A stretch of DNA of 64,000 bases from Sphaerisporangium corydalis (lineage in GTDB: Bacteria; Actinomycetota; Actinomycetes; Streptosporangiales; Streptosporangiaceae). The notes beneath the pieces were generated by a model, which ran no database searches, was not told where the DNA came from, and worked only from the letters and a program-made list of their open reading frames with translations. How positions within the stretch are numbered: the stretch's first letter is position 1; every line of letters begins with the position of its first letter. This document shows, in pieces, positions 51,380 through 62,201 of this stretch. The position numbers were made by a program, and so were the translations under genes. The DNA is taken from positions 1-64,000 of the forward strand of contig NZ_JANZYP010000042.1 of NCBI RefSeq assembly GCF_025506355.1. The letters run 5' to 3'.

Positions 51380-51396
51380 ATGCTGGTCATATGATG

Positions 51397-51448
51397 TGGT
51401 CAGGGGCGGGGTCGAACCGCCGACCTTCCGCTTTTCAGGCGGAGCGAT
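51397..51448 (-). other. 3' fragment of tRNA-Phe(GAA), probable attachment site
   Basis: Read on the minus strand, it has an anticodon stem TCCGC/GCGGA with loop CTGAAAA (anticodon GAA), variable loop AGGTC, T-arm GGCGG-TTCGACC-CCGCC and acceptor 3' strand CCTGACC plus A. The D-arm and 5' acceptor strand (GGTCAGG) are missing upstream, so it is not a functional gene. Such 3' tRNA pieces beside a terminator are the distal junction left when an element integrates into a tRNA gene. The element should therefore lie on the higher-coordinate side. Confidence 0.75.
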
Positions 51449-51547
51449 CACCCTGCTCCTCTCGACAGACCCGAGGTCAGAAGGCTGTGGAAGGCTGCTG
51501 ACGTGTGCTCGCGGTGGCCGATGTTGTCGTCACTGTTGTCGTCAGGT

Positions 51548-51798
51548 CTACGCATGACACTCGATGATCTCGATGGCTTGGAGTACGTCGGTGGCGACAT
51601 GATCGGCGCTGTGATCGTGGCCGACCCAAACGCCTCGGTCGATCCAAATCGTACGTAGCCCGGCCTCCTGTCCCCCGCCGATGTCGGCGAGAAGGTTGTC
51701 ACCGACCATCCATCCCCCGCCTTCGAGGGGCAAACCGCAGCGCTGGGCCGCGACCTTGAACAGCCTGATGTCGGGCTTACGGACTCCTTCGACCCCTG
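51548..51798 (-). pseudogene. HAD-family phosphatase, C-terminal part (gene split by IS)
   Basis: The segment encodes VEGVRKPDIRLFKVAAQRCG (motif III lysine region) and GGWMVGDNLLADIGGGQEAG (motif IV) and ends IEIIECHA. It is the downstream half of the gene whose start is at 54087. Removing the inserted element and one copy of its CCCTG flank restores one frame of 220 residues. Confidence 0.85.
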
Positions 51799-51997
51799 TG
51801 TCGACGACGCGCGAATGTTGGTTCTGGATCACTTTTGGTGCCAGGGCCACGGAGGGTCACCGACTCCACGATCATGAGCGGTCGTGACTGACGATCTCCT
51901 CCAAGACCTCTGGCTCGGCCATATCCCTGACGTCGCGGTCAACACCCTCACCATCAGCGCCAACCGCGTGACCGTCCACGCCACGACAACCACGGAC
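51799..51997 (+). repeat. Left 199-base terminal inverted repeat
   Basis: It includes the IS tip GGTTCTGGATCACTTTTGGT and the first 38 codons of the transposase. Its inverted partner is 53472-53670. Confidence 0.85.
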
Positions 51998-53470
51998 GGG
52001 GCGGCGTGTCCGTCGTGCGGGACGGCCTCGGCCCGGGTGCACAGCAGCTATGTGCGCCGCCTCGATGACAGCGCCGCAGCTCAGCGTCGAGTGGTGATCG
52101 AGTTACGGGTCCGCCGGTTCCGCTGTCGGGAACGAGCCTGTGCGCGAACCACCTTCGTTGAGCAGGTGGCCGGTCTGACCTTCCGGCACGGGCGGCGCAG
52201 TCAGGGACTGCAGAGCGCGCTGCAGCGACTGGCTCTGATGCTGGCCGGCCGGGCCGGCTCCCGCCTTGCCGATGCCTTCGCCGTCCCGGTGAGCCGCTCC
52301 ACCCTCCTGAGGCTGATACGCGCGCTGCCCGAGGCTGCCCCCCAAGTCCCACGCGTCCTGGGGATCGACGAGTTCGCCCTGCGCAAAGGCCATGTCTATG
52401 CCACGGTCCTAGTCGACATCGAGACCCGCCGTCCGGTCGACCTGCTGCCCGACCGCACCGTCGAGACCGTCCGGTCCTGGCTGGCCCAGCACCCCGGCGT
52501 GAAGGTCATCTGCCGCGACCGCTCAGCTTCCTACGCCGAGGCCGCACGACTGGGCGCCCCGGACGCCATCCACGTCGCCGACCGGTTCCACCTGTGGAAA
52601 AACCTGGCCGAAGCCGTCGAGAAGACCGTGTTGCACTACCGCGCGCTCCTGCCCGAGCCTGCACCGCCAACCGGTCGGGCCCAGCCTGTGACCCTGCCGC
52701 CCGTCACCGTCGAACCACGACGCTCCGGCCGTCTGTCGGACCGCGTCCGTGAACAGCACGCCATCGTCCATGGAATGCTGAAAGACGGCGTCGGCCTACG
52801 CACCATCGCCCGCCGGCTCGGGCTGGCCCGTAACACCGTCCGCCGGCTGGCAGGCGCCAAGGACCCCGACGAGCTGCTGGTCGGCCGCTGGACCGGCCGC
52901 ACCAGCATCCTCGACCCCTTCAAGCCCTACCTCGACCAACGGTTCGCCGAGGGATGCACTGTCGCCCGCCGTCTGTTCGCGGAGATCCAACAGCGTGGAT
53001 ACCCCGGGCAGGAACAGATCGTCCGGCAGTACGTCCACCGGCTCCGCGAAGCGTTTCCGCACCAGGCTCCGCGTCGCCGAACGCCTTCCGTCAGGGATGT
53101 CACCAGTTGGATCACTCGCCATCCCGACCGGCTCAAAGCCGACGATGCCCAGCAACTCAAGCAGATCCTCGCCCGCGTCCCGGAACTCGCCCGCACCGCC
53201 GAGCATGTCAGAGCCTTCGCCGAGCTGATGAACAACCGCCGCGGCCACAAGCTCAAGGACTGGATCGCACGCGTCCAGCAGGACCAGGTCCCGGCCCTGC
53301 GAACCTTCGCCGACGGCCTCGTCCAGGACCTCGACGCGGTCGTCGCCGGGCTCAGCCTGCGCTACAGCTCCGGCGCCGTCGAGGGCCAGAACAACAAGAT
53401 GCTCAAGCGGCAGATGTTCGGTCGCGCCGGCTTCGAACTCCTGCGCAAGCGCGTCCTGCACTCGGCATGA
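51884..53470 (+). CDS. ISL3-family transposase
   Basis: 528 residues. A zinc-finger region (about 43-90: CPSCGTAS ... RCRERAC) precedes a DDE domain with VLGIDEFALRKG (Asp near 163), VICRDRSASYAEAA (Asp near 212) and a C-terminal AVEGQNNKMLKRQMFGRAG with the catalytic Glu. It mediates movement of the surrounding element. It starts at GTG inside the left inverted repeat and appears intact. Confidence 0.93.
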   Translation: MTDDLLQDLWLGHIPDVAVNTLTISANRVTVHATTTTDGAACPSCGTASARVHSSYVRRLDDSAAAQRRVVIELRVRRFRCRERACARTTFVEQVAGLTFRHGRRSQGLQSALQRLALMLAGRAGSRLADAFAVPVSRSTLLRLIRALPEAAPQVPRVLGIDEFALRKGHVYATVLVDIETRRPVDLLPDRTVETVRSWLAQHPGVKVICRDRSASYAEAARLGAPDAIHVADRFHLWKNLAEAVEKTVLHYRALLPEPAPPTGRAQPVTLPPVTVEPRRSGRLSDRVREQHAIVHGMLKDGVGLRTIARRLGLARNTVRRLAGAKDPDELLVGRWTGRTSILDPFKPYLDQRFAEGCTVARRLFAEIQQRGYPGQEQIVRQYVHRLREAFPHQAPRRRTPSVRDVTSWITRHPDRLKADDAQQLKQILARVPELARTAEHVRAFAELMNNRRGHKLKDWIARVQQDQVPALRTFADGLVQDLDAVVAGLSLRYSSGAVEGQNNKMLKRQMFGRAGFELLRKRVLHSA

Positions 53471-53471
53471 G

Positions 53472-53670
53472 GTCCGTGGTTGTCGTGGCGTGGACGGTCA
53501 CGCGGTTGGCGCTGATGGTGAGGGTGTTGACCGCGACGTCAGGGATATGGCCGAGCCAGAGGTCTTGGAGGAGATCGTCAGTCACGACCGCTCATGATCG
53601 TGGAGTCGGTGACCCTCCGTGGCCCTGGCACCAAAAGTGATCCAGAACCAGGATTCAGCCGTCGTCGAGA
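53472..53670 (-). repeat. Right 199-base terminal inverted repeat
   Basis: An inverted copy of 51799-51997. On the minus strand it again encodes the first 38 residues of the transposase (MTDDLLQDLWLGHIPDV...), followed by unrelated sequence. Confidence 0.85.
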
Positions 53671-54087
53671 CCCTGAGAGCGCGTAAGCATCAATGACCTC
53701 AGCCAGTCCTGTCTGCTGGATCTTGCCGAGCTGGTTGTCCGCAGTGCCATTGGTGATGATCGCCATTTTCCAGCCCGACGCGCGGAGTCGAGACAGCCCG
53801 TTCATCACCTCGGGCCCACAGCGGACGAGGTACGGCATGCGCTGGCGGTAGCAGCTCCACAGCTCATCAACCTGCTCCGACAAGGCGAAACGGTCCCGGA
53901 CTTTGCTGAAGAAAACTTCACGGTGCGGATAGCTGGCCCGATTGAGGGAGATCAACCAGTCAGCCGCTTCGCGCTTCAACCCATGTTCCTTTACGAACTC
54001 TCCGACCCACACCTGGAACGCCTCATCCAGGTTGACGAGTGTGTTGTCCAGGTCGAAGAGCGCGAGCCTCTGCACGGCGGCCACCAT
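53671..54087 (-). pseudogene. HAD-family phosphatase, N-terminal part (gene split by IS)
   Basis: It encodes MVAAVQRLALFDLDNTLVNL (motif I DLDNT nucleophile region) and WKMAIITNGTADNQLGKIQQ (motif II) up to VIDAYALSG, where the ISL3 element interrupts it. Together with 51548-51798 it would be a normal-length (220-residue) HAD hydrolase. The gene is inactivated, probably recently, since both halves are otherwise free of frame errors. Confidence 0.85.
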
Positions 54088-54370: not shown

Positions 54371-56317
54371 CTATTCAAGATCGTCCCATGTCCAGGCAGC
54401 GGCGGCGGTCATGTCCGGCTCCAGCCCGAACCGGAACCGCTCCCTATGATCACCAATGTTCATGAAATGATCGAATTGGCCTGCACCGGCGGCCCGCTCG
54501 GCCAATGCAACGGCTTGGTCGTGAGCTCCAATCCCCCGCAACCTGCTCAGTAGTTCGCCTACCTCGTCTACATCATCGAGCGCGACATGGGCAGCGACCC
54601 GCTCGGCTAACACGGTGACCTGCTCGTCTGCCCCCACTTTCCGCAGTCCATCAAGCAGTCCGCCTACCTCGTCTACATAATCGAGCGCGACATGGGCAGC
54701 GACCCGCTCGGCCAACACTGCAACCTGCTCATACACCCCGACCTCCCACAGTTCGTTCAGCAGGCCGCTCAACCCGTACGGGTTATCGAGGTCAACATGG
54801 GCCGCGGCCCGTTCGGCTAGCACGATGACCTGCTCGTCTGTCCCCACCCTCCACAGACTGTCCAGCAGGCCGCCCAGGCCGTACGGGTCATCTAGGTCAA
54901 CATGGGACGCAGCCCGCTCGGCTAACACGGTGACCTGCTCGTACGCCCCAATTTCCCACAGCCTGTACAGCAGCCACCCCACCTCGTCAGGGCCATCAAG
55001 GGTGACATGGGTAGCGGGGTTACGGGCCAGCAGTGCAGTGACCTGATCATGTGCCTCAACCTGGCGCAGCCCATCCAGCAACACGCCCAAGCCATCTGGG
55101 TCATCAAGGGCGACGTGGGTAGCGGGGTTACGGGCCAGCAGTGCAGTGATTTGATCATGTGCCTCAACCTGGCGCAGCCCAGCCAGTACCCGGTTTACGT
55201 CATCCGGATCATCGAGGTCAACATGGGCGACGGCTCGCTCGGCCAACATGCTGACCTGCTCGTATGCTCCAACCTGGCGCAACTCATCCAGCAACACGCC
55301 CACGCCATCTGTGTCATCGAAGGTGGCATGGGCGACGGCCCGCTCCGCCAATACGCTGACCTGCTCATGCGCCCCGACCTTCTGCAGGCTGCTCAGCAAC
55401 ACGCCCACGCCATCTGTGTCATCGAAGGTGGCATGGGCGACGGCCCGCTCGGCCAACACGGTGACCTGCTCATGTGCCCCCACCTTCTGCAGGCTGTCCA
55501 ACAATTCGCCCACGCTGTACGGGCTGTCCAGAGCGACATGGATGGCGGGATCACAAGCCAGCAGTGTGGTGATCTGCTCATGTGCCCCGACTTTCTGCAG
55601 GCTGTCCAGCAACACGCCCACGCCATCTGTGTCATCGAAGGTGGCATGGGCGACGGCCCGCTCGGCCAACACGGTGACCTGCTCATGTGCCCCCACCTTC
55701 TGCAGGCTGTCCAACAATTCGCCCACGCTGTACGGGCTGTCCAGAGCGACATGGATGGCGGGATCACAAGCCAGCAGTGTGGTGATCTGCTCATGTGCCC
55801 CGACTTTCTGCAGGCTGTCCAGCAACACGCCCACGCCATCTGTGTCATCGAAGGTGGCATGGGCGACGGCCCGCTCGGCCAACACGGTGACCTGCTCATG
55901 TGCCCCGACCTTCTGCAGGCTGTCCAGCACGCGCACCACGCCATGGGGGTTGTCGAGGGCGACATGCGCAGCGGCCCGCTCGGCCAACACGGTGACCTGC
56001 TCATGTGCCCCTATCTGGTGCAGCCCATCCAGCAGTTCGCCCACGCCAGCTGGGTCGTCGAGGCCAACATGGGCGGCGGGGCCACGGGCCAGCAGTGCGG
56101 TGACCTGCTCATGTGCCCCAACCTGGCGCAGCCCATCCAGCAGCTCGCCCACGCCAGCTGGGTCGTCGAGGATGACGTGAGCAGTGGCCCAGTTTGCGGC
56201 CCGGGGGTCGGCTGGGTGCAGCGCGTGCAGATGGTCGACCAGAGCAGCGGCGGCATAGGGCTCACCGTGGGCGGTGGCGTATTTATGGAGCTGAGCGGAG
56301 TCCACGGTACAGACCAC
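54371..56317 (-). CDS. Solenoid-repeat protein, probably the frameshifted C-terminal half of the upstream ATPase
   Basis: 648 residues, almost entirely about 16 tandem repeats of 35-36 residues with the pattern VTVLAERAxAHVxLDDPxxV then GxLLDxLRxVGAHEQ; each is probably a helical hairpin, giving a ligand-sensing solenoid. The start GTG lies 35 bases inside the upstream ATPase gene in another frame. The text joins smoothly across the shift (NRGLYR then DSAQLHKYATAHGEP), so an ancestral single protein of about 1080 residues is likely. It ends AAWTWDDLE. Confidence 0.8.
   Translation of the reverse strand: MVCTVDSAQLHKYATAHGEPYAAAALVDHLHALHPADPRAANWATAHVILDDPAGVGELLDGLRQVGAHEQVTALLARGPAAHVGLDDPAGVGELLDGLHQIGAHEQVTVLAERAAAHVALDNPHGVVRVLDSLQKVGAHEQVTVLAERAVAHATFDDTDGVGVLLDSLQKVGAHEQITTLLACDPAIHVALDSPYSVGELLDSLQKVGAHEQVTVLAERAVAHATFDDTDGVGVLLDSLQKVGAHEQITTLLACDPAIHVALDSPYSVGELLDSLQKVGAHEQVTVLAERAVAHATFDDTDGVGVLLSSLQKVGAHEQVSVLAERAVAHATFDDTDGVGVLLDELRQVGAYEQVSMLAERAVAHVDLDDPDDVNRVLAGLRQVEAHDQITALLARNPATHVALDDPDGLGVLLDGLRQVEAHDQVTALLARNPATHVTLDGPDEVGWLLYRLWEIGAYEQVTVLAERAASHVDLDDPYGLGGLLDSLWRVGTDEQVIVLAERAAAHVDLDNPYGLSGLLNELWEVGVYEQVAVLAERVAAHVALDYVDEVGGLLDGLRKVGADEQVTVLAERVAAHVALDDVDEVGELLSRLRGIGAHDQAVALAERAAGAGQFDHFMNIGDHRERFRFGLEPDMTAAAAWTWDDLE
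55425..55850. repeat. Two identical 213-base tandem copies inside the solenoid gene
   Basis: 55425-55637 and 55638-55850 are the same base for base (71 codons, two protein repeats), and the identity spills over both flanks. This indicates recent in-frame expansion of the solenoid. Confidence 0.9.
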
Positions 56318-57614
56318 GATTCCAGGCGGCGTCTCCCAGGGCTCTCAGGTCGCTAGGATGTGCATGAGCTGCGGCAGCAGTCCAGAAATCGATCGGCGGA
56401 ATCTGTTCGGCGCGGTGGGTGTGGCCGTACTGGTCTATGTAGTCGGCTAGCCGATATACCGGTCCGCGCTTGGTTGCGGGCTGAAGTCCAGGGGCCCCTC
56501 GGCGGCGATTACGGAGGGCCGCGGCCTTGGCCGGGGTAAGGATTCCGGGGATGCCGTTGCAGGGGGTCGCGGTGTAGTTCAACGCCTGTTCGAACCAATC
56601 CTCGCTGGTCTGCTCCCACTCACGGTTGGTCAGATACCCCGGGGCGGCGCCGACCAGCAGCGCCAGCGGAAGGCGCGGCCCGCACCCCAACCGGCGGGCA
56701 TCCATCGCCGCGTGAATCAGCGCCCGGGTGGCTGGCGGAGCGCCTCGATAGCGATCCACCAGCACCGGGACCCCGGCCAGGTACTGGGTGATCTGACCGT
56801 TGCCCGCGTACTTGGCGGCTTGTCGCAGTCGCGGATCATATGCGGAGTGAATGGCCAAGGCATCGAGGTCAGTGCCGGCGAAAGTCTCCGGCACCCAGAT
56901 GTTGTGCCCGGTTAGGAGCGCCCGTGCCTGGGAGTGCACATCGGGATGGCTGATTGTGGTCAAGGTTCCCCAGTGGTCGGGCCACACGGTGGCCAGCACC
57001 AGCACCGGCCTCCGGCTGGCATCGCGCAGGAGTTCCCGAAGACCGGCGGCCACACGTTCACCCAGGGCGGGGTCGGCCAGGTAGAACTGGGCCTCGTTCA
57101 ACCACACGACCGTGTAAGGCTCGATCCGCCCTAGATCGGCCAGTGCCGCATCTGGACGAGTTGGGTCGATCGGGTGCCATAGCCACCACCCGCCGGTCTT
57201 GCGCAGCGGCTGCAAAGCCTCCCAACAGGCGCGGGTCTTACCGGTTGAGGACCTACCGACCAGCACCGCGATCGCGCTGTGCCCGTCCAGGGCGGCCTGC
57301 ACGGCCCGCGCCAGCTCGTGGTCGTGTTCGCGCGGCACGTACGCTGGAAGCTGCGGCAGACTGGCCGTAGCCGACTCGATGGCGTGGTGCACCTCCAATG
57401 CGAACGGATCGGTTACCTGGGTCAGGGGCCTGCCCGGACGCACACGTCCCGGTGTCGTCCCCCTCATCGTCTCGGTTCCCGCCGCCACCGCACTGCCCAT
57501 CGGCGGGTAGTGATGATGAATGTGCTGGTCTCCGCCGACCTGGTTGACATAGCTCCGACCGAAGGCTTTGGCGTCCTGTGACACCATGCCCGGGTTCTGT
57601 GCATGGCCGGTCAT
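56283..57614 (-). CDS. P-loop ATPase of an NLR-like module, with N-terminal Q-V-G-G-D-Q motif
   Basis: 443 residues. Residues 20-38 hold a short motif SYVNQVGGDQHIHHH. A P-loop follows (VGRSSTGKTRACWEAL, near 120) and a Walker B-like TVVWLNEAQFYL (near 170), then a helical region. This is the layout of STAND/NLR-type signalling ATPases, whose C-terminal repeats would be supplied by the out-of-frame gene downstream. It overlaps the upstream membrane-protein gene by ATGA. It ends shortly after the apparent frameshift (NRGLYRGLRSAP). Confidence 0.78.
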   Translation of the reverse strand: MTGHAQNPGMVSQDAKAFGRSYVNQVGGDQHIHHHYPPMGSAVAAGTETMRGTTPGRVRPGRPLTQVTDPFALEVHHAIESATASLPQLPAYVPREHDHELARAVQAALDGHSAIAVLVGRSSTGKTRACWEALQPLRKTGGWWLWHPIDPTRPDAALADLGRIEPYTVVWLNEAQFYLADPALGERVAAGLRELLRDASRRPVLVLATVWPDHWGTLTTISHPDVHSQARALLTGHNIWVPETFAGTDLDALAIHSAYDPRLRQAAKYAGNGQITQYLAGVPVLVDRYRGAPPATRALIHAAMDARRLGCGPRLPLALLVGAAPGYLTNREWEQTSEDWFEQALNYTATPCNGIPGILTPAKAAALRNRRRGAPGLQPATKRGPVYRLADYIDQYGHTHRAEQIPPIDFWTAAAAHAHPSDLRALGDAAWNRGLYRGLRSAP

Positions 57615-58006
57615 GGCTGGGTTGAAGGGTCCGGGTTCTGGTCGCCGCCGATCTGGGTGACCGACCCACCCTCAGACGCCGTGCCGTGCTGCGCCATGCG
57701 GTCCGGGGCAGCGCCAACTGTTGGACCGTTGGCAGGTACTTGGTGCCCACCGATCTGGGTCACCCGGCCGTAGCCTGACGCCGTGGCTCGCTGCGACACC
57801 TGTCTACTCACAGCGGATGGTGCGGCCAGTCCGTACACCGCCACTGCCAGTCCGGCCACGGCTACCAGCGCCCCGACCACGCTGGCGAGCTTGTCGGCGT
57901 TTTCCAGCCCCACGGTCGCGAAGTAGACGCTTAAACCGGTAACTGCCAGGACCGTCACCCCGGCCCCTGCCCAGACCTGCACACGTCCCGCCATAACCGC
58001 CATCAT
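57611..58006 (-). CDS. Two-helix membrane protein with two C-terminal Q-I-G-G motifs
   Basis: 131 residues. Two hydrophobic segments (about 10-32 and 39-61) are followed by a polar tail carrying RVTQIGGHQ (about 80-88) and SVTQIGGDQ (about 114-122), each preceded by a similar Q-x-[AG]-x-A stretch. The same motif is at the N terminus of the ATPase encoded next, whose ATG overlaps this stop. I infer a membrane effector recruited by motif-motif assembly. The family is not recognised. Confidence 0.72.
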   Translation of the reverse strand: MMAVMAGRVQVWAGAGVTVLAVTGLSVYFATVGLENADKLASVVGALVAVAGLAVAVYGLAAPSAVSRQVSQRATASGYGRVTQIGGHQVPANGPTVGAAPDRMAQHGTASEGGSVTQIGGDQNPDPSTQP

Positions 58007-58590
58007 CGGCCATTACCGTGACTACGCACAGCCAATCCCATAAAGGGAGCGAAGCACGTAGCCGCGATCGGGATCCCTGACTTCCTGCTGCAAACGGGAG
58101 CCAGTCACGACGTAGATGGCTCCTGGCGCTGCTCAATCGGCAGATGACGAGCGGTGCAGTGTGCTCGCGTAAGGCAGTGTTGCTGTACGGATTGCTGTAC
58201 AGCAGTTTGCCCGGACCGACGAGTGCCGGCGCTCCGTATTTATCACGGGGTCGGATGCGCGACGGGGTATGCGTCCGAAAACGGCCCCACCTGGGCGAGG
58301 AGACTCCGCGAGTACCACCTGTTGGCGGCGCGACGATCACTGCAGTGGCGCGCAAGACCAACGGTTGGTAGGAGGCCCGTCCAGCGACACCCCCGTTCGC
58401 CGCCTCCTCTTCCGTCTGACCCTCCCACCGACGCGCTATAGGGCCTGGCCAGACTTTTTCGGCAGTCACTTAATCCAGTATTCGGACGGGTTTTGAGACA
58501 TGTCTCGGTCACCTCAACGGCATCGGTGTGTTGCGCGCTGGCATGTTGCGTAGAGTTAAGCGGACTATCCCGGCGTCAGCGGAGAGCACC
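58007..58590. other. Divergent regulatory gap of the island cargo
   Basis: No gene is convincing. It holds the perfect palindrome GAGACATGTCTC at 58495-58506, 85 bases before the TIR gene, and a TGCTGTAC direct repeat (58181-58188 and 58193-58200), the second copy lying in the palindrome GCTGTACAGC (58194-58203). These are candidate operators for the two divergent immune-like modules. Confidence 0.45.
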
Positions 58591-59064
58591 ATGGCGGAGA
58601 ACGGTCCAGTCGTGAGCAAGTCGAAAGACTTCTTCATAACCTTCAACGGGAAGGATGAGGGCTGGGCGACGTGGATCGCCGCAGCGCTAGAGACCGCTGG
58701 ATACACAACCACCATTCAAATATGGGATTTCCGTCCTGGGGACAATTTTATGGCGGAGATGGACCACGCGTTGGCGACCTGCCAGCGTACTCTAGGCGTG
58801 CTCTCGCCTAACTATCTCGCTTCTCTCTTCACCCGAGCGGAGTGGACAGCGGCCTATCGCCAGACGTTACTCGGGGGAAAGCGACGGTTCATTCCGGTGA
58901 GGGTTGCTGCATGTGACGTGGCCCCGCTGCTCGGGCCGTTGGTCTACGTCGACCTGGTAGGCGTAGAGGAGAACGAGGCTCGCGATCGACTGCTGGCCGG
59001 CGTCGCCGACTCGGTGAGTCGATCCCCACGTGACCCCCGATTCCCAGGCGCTTCGGACCGTTGA
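58591..59064 (+). CDS. Stand-alone TIR-domain protein
   Basis: 157 residues, essentially one TIR domain: KDFFITFNGKDEGWATWIA, then IQIWDFRPGDNFMAEMDHAL, then LGVLSPNYLASLFTRAEW. The glutamate near residue 84 sits where NAD+-cleaving TIRs have the catalytic Glu. It is likely an NADase effector in a cell-death defence. The ATG at 58591 has GGAGAG upstream. It is followed by a TIR/NB-ARC/TPR gene with a related TIR. Confidence 0.85.
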   Translation: MAENGPVVSKSKDFFITFNGKDEGWATWIAAALETAGYTTTIQIWDFRPGDNFMAEMDHALATCQRTLGVLSPNYLASLFTRAEWTAAYRQTLLGGKRRFIPVRVAACDVAPLLGPLVYVDLVGVEENEARDRLLAGVADSVSRSPRDPRFPGASDR

Positions 59065-59108
59065 CTCCTGAAGAGAAGCAGGCCACGCGGCGGAGCCCAG
59101 GAGATTCT

Positions 59109-62100
59109 GTGTCGGATACCGAATACACCGCAGAATTTTTCGTCAGTCATGCGGACACTGACGTGCAGTGGGCGGAGTGGATCGCGTTCGAACTGGAAAG
59201 CGCCGGATATGGAGTGATCCTCAAGGCGTGGGATATCCGGCCTGGGGACAATCGTCTCGACAAGATTGATGAGGCGCTGTCCACCTGCCGCCACACCCTC
59301 TACGTTCTGTCTGCCGAGCATGATGCAGAAGTGGCGGCTCGTACCGCCGCTCAGTACCTAGGACTTCAGGGCAGGGAACGAGCCCTGATTCCCGTCCGCG
59401 TGGACGACGGCGGTGGCGACGTTTCGCCGTCGATAGGGGCACTCGTGCCGATCGACCTCCGGGATGTGGACGACGAGGATGAGGCCCGGCGCCGACTGCT
59501 GGCCGGGGTGGCCGAGCGCGCGGAGCGGGTCGCACGAGCCGGCTTCCCCAACAGGTCTGGGAAGCGGGTCCGGTTTCCCGGTGCCGAGCAGGAGGTGTGC
59601 GAACTTCGCGGGCACCGCCCAGACCCGCGTTTTACCGGACGCGATGACATGATGGCGGATTTGTATCGCGCCCTGCGGGCGAACCGCTCGACCTCCACCG
59701 TCCAGGCGATCACTGGCCTGGGTGGGCTGGGTAAGACCCAGGTTGCCGTCGAATACGCTTTTCGACACGGTATTGCCTACGACTTGGTGTGGTGGGTGCG
59801 GGCCGAGGATCCGTCCACGTTGCGGGGAGACTACGCCGAGCTCGCCACGGAGTTGGGTCTGCCGTTCGAGCAGGATGACCAGGCGATAGCGGCGCTTCGC
59901 CAGGCACTGCGCCGCCGTAATAACTGGCTGCTGATCTTCGACAACGCCGAGGACCCCGACGAGCTCTTACCGCTGCTTCCTGAGCGGCACACGGGGCATG
60001 TGCTCATCACCTCCCGGCGGCCGGAATGGCCCCATGCGGAACTCCGGCACCTCGACGTTCTCCCCGTCCCCGCCGCGGTGGAATATCTGCGGCATTGGGG
60101 AAGGGTATCCAGCGCTGACACGGCAAAGGACCTCGCGGACGCCCTGGGATGTCTGCCTCTGGCGCTGGAACAGGCGGCGAGCGTCATCGCGGACGGAATG
60201 GCCGCCACCGACTACCTCGACCAACTCCACAAGCAGTCGCCGGAACTCTTCATGCAGGGACGAACCGGAAACCACCAGGCGACGATCGCGTCCACGTGGC
60301 GGGTGTCCTTCGACCGCCTGGCCGACCGGTCCCCGGCCGCCGTGGCCCTGTTCCGCCTCGCTGCTTTCCTCGGGGCCGAGGCGATCCCTCTGGACCGGCT
60401 CGTTCCGGTACCAGGCATGCCTGCCGAGTTGGCCGAGGCGCTGACGGACCCATTCCGCCGTACCGAGGCCACGAAGGCCCTCCGGGAGTACTCCCTGGCC
60501 AAGACCGGTGACGGCCTCATGTCGATCCATCGAATGGTGCAAGCCGTCACTCGCACCGAACTCGCTGCGGACGAGTCCCGCTGGGCAGCGTTTGCGCTCG
60601 CGACAATGAGCACCGCGTTTCCCAATGAGGTAGGCGATCCCGCATCTTGGCCGACCTGCGAAACGATGCTCGCCCACGCTCTCTCAAGCGCACAGCACGC
60701 CCGGCGGCTCGGCGTCGACATCGCCGGAACGATCGACCTGCTGGACCGGGTCGGGCGATATCTCCTGGCCCGGGGAAGGTCGGACCGGGCGGCTGCGGTC
60801 GTCGAGGACGCGCTGAAGTCGGCCAAGCAGCTTCCCACCGACGCCCTGGAGTATCTCCGCTGCCGCAACACCCAGGGGCTGATTCTGCTGAGTCAAGGCG
60901 ACCATCACAGGGCGCGGCAAGCGCAGGAGGAGGTCTATCAGGCCAGAATCCGGAAGCTCGGGGAGGACAATGTAGAAACCCTGCGCGCTGGCCGAGATTT
61001 AGTTGAAGCGCTCTATAGACAAGGTCAATGGGCACAGGCCACTCAATTGCAGAATCGGCTCGTCGAGACATTCACCGCAGCCCTTGGCGCGGACAACCTC
61101 GAAACCGTCACCGCCTCGGCTTACCAGGCAACTCTCCTCCGTAGCGCCGGACAGTACCAACGGACTCGCAACCTGGAGGAGCGGGTACTGGAGGCACGTC
61201 GCAGACTCCTCGGCGAGGAACACCCCGACACCCTCAACGCGATCGCCAACCTCGCCACCACCCTGCACTCACAAGGCGAGTACGACCGCGCCCACACCCT
61301 CGAAGAACAGGTCCTTGACGCCCGCCGCCGTCTCCTCGGCGAGGAACACCCCCACACCCTCAACGCGATCGCCAACCTCGCCATCACCCTGCACTCACAA
61401 GGCGAGTACGACCGCGCCCACACCATGGCAGAACAGGTCCTTGACGCCCACCGCCGTCTCCTCGGCGAGGAACACCCCCACACCCTCGACGCGATCGCCG
61501 GCCTCGCCACCATCCTTTACTCACAAGGCGAGTACGACCGCGCCCGCACCCTCGAAGAACAGGTCCTTGACGCCCGCCGCCGTCTCCTCGGCGAGGAACA
61601 CCCCGACACCCTCAACGCGATCGCCAACCTCGCCACCATCCTTTACTCACAAGGCGAGTACGACCGCGCCCACACCATGGCAGAACAGGTCCTTGACGCC
61701 CACCGCCGTCTCCTCGGCGAGGAACACCCCCACACCCTCAACGCGATCGCCGGCCTCGCCACCACCCTGCACTCACAAGGCGAGTACGACCGCGCCCGCA
61801 CCATGGCAGAACAGGTCCTTGACGCCCGCCGCCGTCTCCTCGGCGAGGAACACCCCCAAACCCTCAACGCGATCGCCAACCTCGCCACCACCCTCCACTC
61901 ACAAGGCGAAACGGCGAAAGCGCACTCCTTACTCTTCGACGCGCTCACTGCCAGTCAGCGGGCCTACGGCAAGAAGAACACGATCACGTCCCATATTGCT
62001 TGGAAACTGGTGGGCCTCCTTGGCGCGCCTCATGAAGCGAACAGAAAGAGATCGATCGTCATTGAGAACCTCTCGTGGCTATCGAAGGAACCGCTTAACC

Positions 62101-62201
62101 GGCTGAGCGGAGAGCAGAAAAGCATCAGGGAGCGCATAAAGCGATTCTTGTTTGGCGGACGCAAGCTGGCCAATCGCCGCCCGTCAAAACGCAAGAAATA
62201 G
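59109..62201 (+). CDS. TIR-like / NB-ARC / TPR protein (NLR-like)
   Basis: 1030 residues. A TIR-like domain (about 5-140) is related to the preceding gene's (AWDIRPGDN, IPVRV), but the catalytic-Glu stretch is shortened and altered (LSAEHDAEVAARTAAQYL). An NB-ARC ATPase follows: P-loop GLGGLGKTQVAVEYA near 205, LLIFDNAED near 277 and VLITSRR. The rest is TPR, including six near-identical 42-residue repeats (about 705-940) and a basic tail. The GTG at 59109 has AGGAG 5 bases upstream; a TTG at 59061 overlapping the previous stop is the alternative. A probable phage or stress sensor. Confidence 0.88.
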   Translation: MSDTEYTAEFFVSHADTDVQWAEWIAFELESAGYGVILKAWDIRPGDNRLDKIDEALSTCRHTLYVLSAEHDAEVAARTAAQYLGLQGRERALIPVRVDDGGGDVSPSIGALVPIDLRDVDDEDEARRRLLAGVAERAERVARAGFPNRSGKRVRFPGAEQEVCELRGHRPDPRFTGRDDMMADLYRALRANRSTSTVQAITGLGGLGKTQVAVEYAFRHGIAYDLVWWVRAEDPSTLRGDYAELATELGLPFEQDDQAIAALRQALRRRNNWLLIFDNAEDPDELLPLLPERHTGHVLITSRRPEWPHAELRHLDVLPVPAAVEYLRHWGRVSSADTAKDLADALGCLPLALEQAASVIADGMAATDYLDQLHKQSPELFMQGRTGNHQATIASTWRVSFDRLADRSPAAVALFRLAAFLGAEAIPLDRLVPVPGMPAELAEALTDPFRRTEATKALREYSLAKTGDGLMSIHRMVQAVTRTELAADESRWAAFALATMSTAFPNEVGDPASWPTCETMLAHALSSAQHARRLGVDIAGTIDLLDRVGRYLLARGRSDRAAAVVEDALKSAKQLPTDALEYLRCRNTQGLILLSQGDHHRARQAQEEVYQARIRKLGEDNVETLRAGRDLVEALYRQGQWAQATQLQNRLVETFTAALGADNLETVTASAYQATLLRSAGQYQRTRNLEERVLEARRRLLGEEHPDTLNAIANLATTLHSQGEYDRAHTLEEQVLDARRRLLGEEHPHTLNAIANLAITLHSQGEYDRAHTMAEQVLDAHRRLLGEEHPHTLDAIAGLATILYSQGEYDRARTLEEQVLDARRRLLGEEHPDTLNAIANLATILYSQGEYDRAHTMAEQVLDAHRRLLGEEHPHTLNAIAGLATTLHSQGEYDRARTMAEQVLDARRRLLGEEHPQTLNAIANLATTLHSQGETAKAHSLLFDALTASQRAYGKKNTITSHIAWKLVGLLGAPHEANRKRSIVIENLSWLSKEPLNRLSGEQKSIRERIKRFLFGGRKLANRRPSKRKK
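61230..61910 (+). repeat. Six near-identical 126-base TPR-coding units
   Basis: Units begin near ACCCTCAACGCGATCGCC and recur every 126 bases (42 residues: NAIANLATTLHSQGEYDRAH then EEQVLDARRRLLGEEHP). Few bases differ between copies, pointing to recent expansion or gene conversion. Confidence 0.85.

Follow-up and report, generated by a model that had tools for sequence, protein, structure and literature searches.

The DNA analysed here, positions 1 to 64,000 of contig NZ_JANZYP010000042.1 from Sphaerisporangium corydalis (this whole 64,000-nucleotide stretch is referred to as the window), carries on its minus strand, in the order effector, ATPase and repeat protein from 58006 down to 54371, a locus that probably constitutes an NLR-type sensor switching on a separate two-helix membrane effector by means of a shared sequence tag. 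The system would resemble the bacterial BASS systems and the HET-S/NWD2 pair of Podospora anserina, with an effector that by profile comparison is not a Bell protein. As judged by comparison of predicted proteins, the features that carry this assignment are the gene pair itself, the matching motifs on its two members, the co-variation of these motifs, the exchangeable motif classes and the fused all-in-one versions. Loci, genomes and contigs are denoted below by L, G and C numbers.

Matching tags on effector and receptor

The features of the locus are collected in Table 1. The ATG of the ATPase and the effector stop codon overlap by 4 bases, so that the two genes adjoin as those of a BASS/Bell signalosome do.

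Table 1. Features of the effector–NLR locus in the window (aa, amino acids; ORF, open reading frame).
Feature	Position	Strand	Basis
Effector gene, 131-aa membrane protein with two hydrophobic helices and a polar tail	57611..58006	-	ORF, hydropathy, charge pattern, family profile
Motif copy 1 in effector tail, VSQRATASGYGRVTQIGGHQ	57740..57799	-	Motif search, 20-mer scan
Motif copy 2 in effector tail, MAQHGTASEGGSVTQIGGDQ	57638..57697	-	Motif search, 20-mer scan
First part of NLR, 443-aa P-loop ATPase, AAA_16-like, with GRSSTGKT and WLNEAQ	56283..57614	-	ORF, Pfam
Single motif copy near NLR N-terminus, VSQDAKAFGRSYVNQVGGDQ	57525..57584	-	Motif search, 20-mer scan
Second part of NLR, 648-aa array of 16 repeat units	54371..56317	-	ORF, repeat analysis
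Overlap of ATPase and repeat ORFs, with one-base frame change about here	56283..56317	-	Three-frame reading beside seven relatives

The shared motif comprises 20 residues with the consensus VxQRAxAxGxGxVxQxGGDQ and occurs twice on the effector tail and once on the ATPase near its start, in agreement with the original prediction of a two-helix membrane protein with two tail copies beside an ATPase with one. The Q-x-[AG]-x-A stretch that was said to precede each copy is present, but as part of this one motif rather than as a separate element. Likewise, the three ORFs of the proposed three-gene module are found, but they represent an effector and one split NLR, the frame split having gone unnoticed. 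In a gap-free comparison with the 86,631 20-mers from six-frame window ORFs of at least 60 amino acids, which served as chance control, effector copy 1, itself apart, scored best against the second copy on the effector (54) and the one on the ATPase (46), with the next match at 35. The score observed for the tail against the ATPase N-terminus was reached by 0 of 500 and 0 of 1000 tail shuffles in two runs. Chance or low complexity as the source of the shared motif is ruled out by these shuffles, by the 20-mer scan and by the permuted pairings described below. The copies are pairwise identical at 36–41 of 60 nucleotides and use different codons for 6 of 12, 7 of 11 and 2 of 8 identical residues in the three comparisons, which argues against a fresh DNA duplication.

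For the survey of homologous gene pairs, a domain profile yielded 88 ORFs from 80 regions, seven same-genus loci and the window; the 80 regions were taken from the top-ranked matches, among those listed, of a profile with tails in its rows, so that seed-like tail classes are over-represented. Removal of one duplicate (L009, at the same place as L079) and of 12 ORFs longer than 360 amino acids, taken to be fusions or other large proteins, left 75 unfused effectors. A downstream partner was defined as an ORF of at least 300 amino acids with a P-loop pattern and a frame opening no more than 400 bases past the effector end, the pattern being required because choice of the longest neighbour gave wrong, antisense or spurious ORFs in GC-rich DNA. 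The strict pattern gave 31 pairs and a loosened one 34; a P-loop ORF thus lies directly downstream of 34 of the 75 effectors, the window's own included. Own-pair local alignments of these 34 scored 58.4 on average versus 35.1 when permuted, with a maximum of 43.9 in 20,000 permutations, and 25 of them score above tail shuffles at the 1% level. The window-motif profile finds its motif on both sides in 17 pairs, on neither in 17 and on one side only in 0, so that the motif co-varies across homologous pairs, as had been anticipated, with the reservation that related genomes are not independent and that the Fisher value and the permutations are not true probabilities. The 24 motif instances that seeded this profile were typed from loci later counted, effector and NLR sides alike; eight of the 17 concordant pairs gave no seed (L047, L049, L056, L064, L065, L067, L075 and L082). 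At least two tail copies face one NLR copy in 13 of the 17 motif-bearing pairs (matches of at least 5 bits), L075 being scored with three copies of which one is an overlapping partial match. Five further tag classes are found in matched pairs: GDNxGIxSTGD (L069, L072 and, as a variant, L105), NxIxGGTFxxPVxxxRDI (L081, L093 and, in similar form, L074), GGDHVEIHGTFH (L113), NIQIGR (L110) and NRTKGD (L124). Outside the host's order, L242 apparently holds yet another tag pair, as seen by eye.

The family of the window's ATPase itself offers five neighbour pairs with four motif classes, those other than the window's own coming from loci chosen partly for an ATPase match starting near the N-terminus. 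Their effectors are the two-helix protein (window, L124), Bell-like helical proteins (L166, L167) and a different two-helix protein (L168); the labels Bell-like, trypsin-like, helix-turn-helix-like and motif-like linker were here and below assigned by eye. When the five tails are scored against the five N-termini (5 × 5), the best partner of each tail always belongs to the same tag class. The L166 tail does slightly better with the L167 N-terminus, of the same class, than with its own, and each of the five own pairs beats 1000 shuffles. Since the tails peak within their own class, the receptor tag, by these scores, follows the tag of the neighbour and not the ATPase lineage. Three further loci with motif-like N-termini (L169, L172 and L173) have no matching effector within 900 bases upstream. 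NLRs from two further clusters of the pair set bear the window tag as well, and inspection by eye places it on Bell-like proteins too (L188, L189/L214).

Several side observations on tags and effectors were made in the same material. The Bell-like tail of L188 apparently carries three tag types in tandem, and contig G051:C37 holds both a two-helix effector (L067) and a Bell-like effector (L189/L214) with similar double tags, all by eye. In L168 and L146/L170 this ATPase family is combined with another pair of membrane helices: in one instance a neighbouring gene encodes them with a GGDHxxFxxGTFHGQV tag, in the other they are fused into the NLR.

Among the 12 long ORFs (over 360 amino acids) with the two-helix module, nine also contain the P-loop pattern, and a motif-like linker is kept in three fusions (L077, L085, L114) and lacking in four (L095, L100, L106, L109).

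Effector and receptor families

The hydrophobic stretches of the effector span approximately residues 11–34 (Kyte-Doolittle peak 1.76) and 43–61 (peak 2.36). Averaged over 86 sequences of the family, the numbers of K+R and D+E residues are 2.1 and 0.1 before helix 1, 1.5 and 2.4 in the loop, and 2.5 and 1.6 after helix 2, and from this charge pattern we infer a cytoplasmic tail; the protein fits a hairpin with both ends and the tail in the cytoplasm. A profile of nine members, tails included, matched the family in at least 167 of the 345 genomes and 36 of the 70 genera of the host's order at E up to 1e-3, a count that may be low, with 11 first-look candidates scored per genome. The domain-only profile, at a stricter E up to 1e-6, matched 4 of 396 phylum-wide genomes including the window's own, while a plasmid search with the effector gave only one partial match (Nonomuraea gerenzanensis, region L134) and a scan of named genomes one relative. 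Pfam, NCBIfam, PADLOC and PHROGs held no convincing family for the window effector, and PHROGs no match for the ATPase.

The receptor probably has, by its sequence features, the NLR layout of a P-loop domain followed by C-terminal repeats. By the STAND/NLR measure, Pfam AAA_16 falls just under its cut-off in the window and is matched at E up to 0.1 by all 22 aligned members of the ATPase family, and 16 repeat units follow. The family mostly conserves GxSSTGKTR together with a WLNE- or WLDD-like element. Most of the 16 units are 35–36 residues long, and in the DNA the array contains a nearly identical 213-base-pair unit in 2.7 copies at 98%. Matches of the repeat protein above the cut-offs to Pfam OTOS, DUF1967 and RRM_PARP14_3 and to NCBIfam Obg_CgtA_exten were disbelieved as arising from repetitive sequence, and its other matches lie below their cut-offs; for 11 of 12 Pfam and all 7 NCBIfam families no single stretch passes. 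In seven Streptomyces plasmid relatives, 55–66% identical to the window ATPase, ATPase and repeats form one uninterrupted polypeptide of about 1,010–1,430 amino acids (L126–L130, L132 and L133; the plasmid and other regions L131, L134, L135 and L245 were left out of the analysis).

The ATPase family is matched in at least 139 of the 345 genomes of the order, again possibly a low count, as 4 first-look candidates were scored per genome, and, with E up to 1e-10 as the limit, in 84 plasmid records, of which 74 are from Streptomyces. Across 29 loci its N-termini are mostly helix-turn-helix-like by eye, with a trypsin-like domain in L153 and short motif regions in L140, L143, L145 and L149 as exceptions. 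The N-terminus of this family is, on such a comparison, a swap slot. In the seven plasmid ATPases it is helix-turn-helix-like or otherwise helical in appearance, in L146 a pair of membrane helices is fused to it, and the plasmid locus L128 adjoins type I-E cas genes.

Comparison with known signalling systems

Amyloid signalosomes of the BASS/Bell kind in bacteria are reportedly founded on the study of Dyrka et al. (2020, J Mol Biol). In filamentous bacteria, BASS motifs connect NLRs, at the N-terminus, with neighbouring Bell proteins, at the C-terminus (PMC7889193, PMC8086366), and BASS4 is described as relatively often repeated on the effector side (PMC8086366). The window locus shares with these systems (PMC7889193) the adjacent or overlapping genes, the motif at the NLR N-terminus and effector C-terminus, and an effector hypothesised to be membrane-targeting. 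It differs in its effector: the two-helix module, about 60 residues long, shows no detectable similarity at the profile level to either of two collected Bell-type sets. When the profile of 16 two-helix domains was compared with that of 12 Bell-like domains (the L166 family, Bell-like by eye), the probability was 0.2%, and with two BASS3-bearing Bell domains (L216 and L217, whose BASS3-like tails were found with a published peptide) 0.1%, the latter resting on two rows. The two Bell sets, which were collected here and are not a published profile, matched each other weakly (20% over 24 columns). By the tests applied the effector is not a Bell protein, and layout and tag logic are those of a BASS signalosome. 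BASS1 and BASS4 were considered as possible identities of the motif, the effector-side repetition of BASS4 being a hint only.

Like the window pair, HET-S/NWD2 has two motif repeats (R1/R2) on the effector and one (R0) on the NLR, and two-gene and all-in-one NLR versions both exist in fungi (PMC5485727). At E up to 1 the effector gave no Pfam match to a HeLo model, and the likeness noted here is one of layout. SLATT proteins are two-helix pore-forming effectors of conflict systems (PMC7159879) and, like the effector here, small two-helix membrane proteins beside NTPase systems; the link to the NTPase here, unlike theirs, runs through a shared motif. SLATT is not one of the two Pfam families that the window effector matches at E up to 1, and it was likewise absent among the matches listed (25 of 32 families) for the 16 aligned effector members. 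Antiviral STANDs and bacterial NLRs (PMC12881547) share the probable layout of P-loop and C-terminal repeats, whereas the effector here is a separate protein and no PADLOC model matches the three proteins. A search of the literature on related systems, mostly open literature, gave no such two-helix effector among the matches listed, and a prior description is possible.

Proposed mechanism and alternative explanations

The preferred reading of the locus is that the C-terminal repeats probably sense a trigger, upon which the P-loop ATPase, judged by its family type, would oligomerise and cluster its single N-terminal motif copies. The clustered motif would then bind, and probably template, the two motif copies that the effector carries on its cytoplasmic tail, and the two-helix proteins so gathered would disturb the membrane and cause the cell to stop or die. 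Oligomerisation, amyloid (beta-arch) templating, membrane damage and a purpose in defence are inferred parts of this reading. Receptor-to-effector signalling through the motif, as originally predicted, is well supported in its core, the shared-motif link, because of the co-variation, the class swaps on one ATPase scaffold and the all-in-one fusions; the rest of that prediction stands as a proposal.

A number of results weigh against this assignment. The window ATPase scores just below the Pfam AAA_16 cut-off (E 8.4e-7, 30.1 bits against 32.6), the profile of its family found no sequence match among solved structures (another profile search of solved structures likewise found nothing), and an AlphaFold2 model of the ATPase from the single sequence gave no usable fold (mean pLDDT, the predicted local distance difference test score, 35.8). 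At E up to 0.1, none of the three proteins (effector, ATPase, repeats) matched a family of PADLOC-DB 2.0.0. In the window the frame shifts by one base near 56300, the ATPase and repeat ORFs overlapping by 35 bases. In the pair set, 9 of 34 pairs fail the 1% tail-shuffle test (L059, L087, L091 and L075 among them) and in only 11 of the 31 strict pairs is the own partner top-ranked among all N-termini; because many loci share a tag class, the scores show tag-class matching and not one-to-one specificity. Three of the 12 long ORFs lack the P-loop pattern (L108, L111, L116). Finally, immediate downstream P-loop ORFs are missing for 41 of the 75 unfused effectors. It had been foreseen that an absent or unmatched motif in homologous pairs, or a membrane protein kept without its ATPase, would speak against the idea; with the window-motif profile no pair was one-sided, and the second is partly borne out by these 41 loci.

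Window-class motifs are nevertheless present in 17 of the 41. Five of the 41 match a P-loop ORF elsewhere in the fetched stretch (L102, L058, L088, L066 and L107, by a looser search run without shuffle control), and in two the downstream ORF bears the motif but not the P-loop pattern (L046, a 71-residue ORF, and L057, a 312-residue frame). In the window's own genome (G000), the motif profile finds a Bell-like 139-residue protein on C86 (L238) and NLR-like proteins on C83 (L236) and C57 (L237), none with a convincing partner by pattern search of the 9.5–11.5 kb around each. It is possible that orphan effectors are fired in trans. Eight two-helix proteins of one genus (g40: L061, L062, L080, L083, L086, L090, L092 and L097) have no downstream P-loop ORF that we could find and carry a tandem tail of a GDNSGxxSTGD and an AEASGxGRxxQAGGDQ type; their receptors may lie elsewhere.

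A further-reaching interpretation, which we put forward tentatively and are inclined to doubt slightly as a whole, is that Actinobacteria of the host's order use a plug-and-socket code. Several mutually non-matching motif classes would occur on a single two-helix module, and likewise on a single NLR scaffold, and a receptor would fire only effectors bearing its own tag. Effector type (two-helix, other two-helix or Bell-like) and receptor type would be freely exchangeable provided that the tags match, orphan effectors would be fired in trans by distant same-tag receptors, and the two-helix module would be a new class of amyloid-triggered membrane effector. If the preferred reading of the locus is right, bacterial amyloid cell-death signalling, kin to that of fungi and mammals, would not be tied to the Bell domain, and the tag would be the constant logic around which receptor and effector are both exchanged. 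The natural swaps on one ATPase scaffold would in turn provide ready-made matched and mismatched pairs with which to study short-motif specificity and a possible role against phage.

Of the alternatives, the one that keeps most weight, although we consider it rather unlikely, concerns the window strain only: the locus there would be a decaying remnant, its effector intact and its receptor broken by the frame change. Such a state would agree with the single frame in the seven relatives versus two overlapping frames here, and some other family members are in pieces within the ATPase as well (G007, G149 and G227). Both ORFs are, however, otherwise long and open, with conserved ATPase motifs, and the frame change may represent decay, an assembly error in this 162-contig draft or a natural two-chain form; a remnant would also have no bearing on the mechanism in the relatives.

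More doubtful still, and distinctly unlikely, is that the motif is a non-amyloid homotypic docking tag by which the two-helix protein holds the NLR at the membrane, the output lying elsewhere, in the NLR itself or in the nearby TIR proteins. The module occupies the effector place of the family, where a Bell-like domain or another kind of two-helix protein can stand instead, and many free modules keep the motif without a direct downstream P-loop ORF. The TIR genes moreover lie on the other strand, and the copy-1 scan gave no further strong match in the window. In favour of such a tag are the nine long ORFs that join the module to P-loop proteins, as would be expected of a plain anchor, and the helix-turn-helix-like or trypsin-like N-termini (by eye) of some ATPases, which would make a membrane location optional.

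A role of the two-helix protein as negative regulator or immunity partner, instead of effector, seems highly improbable: small membrane partners of toxins can, as general knowledge has it, be inhibitors, but the module is fused at the N-terminal side of P-loop proteins, the place of an effector domain, and the substitution of Bell-like proteins at that place is a better fit to an effector. Coincidence, or a recent functionless DNA duplication of the kind that the nucleotide identity between the copies might suggest, has a negligible chance of being correct in view of the differing codons, the 0 of 1000 shuffles and the matching pairs over many genomes with different motif classes, whose statistics contradict it.

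The locus lies beside further genes of note. At 58528–62201 the window holds a divergent TIR gene and a TIR–P-loop–TPR gene, the latter with a 126-base-pair TPR unit in 5.6 copies at 93%; together with the 213-base-pair unit of the NLR, this means that two neighbouring sensor-like genes both carry nearly identical repeats. On the other side, an ISL3-family transposase gene (51884–53470, plus strand) is situated inside 51548–54087, flanked by two pieces on the minus strand with matches to N-terminal and C-terminal HAD-hydrolase models, and a tRNA-Phe gene is found at 51396–51467.

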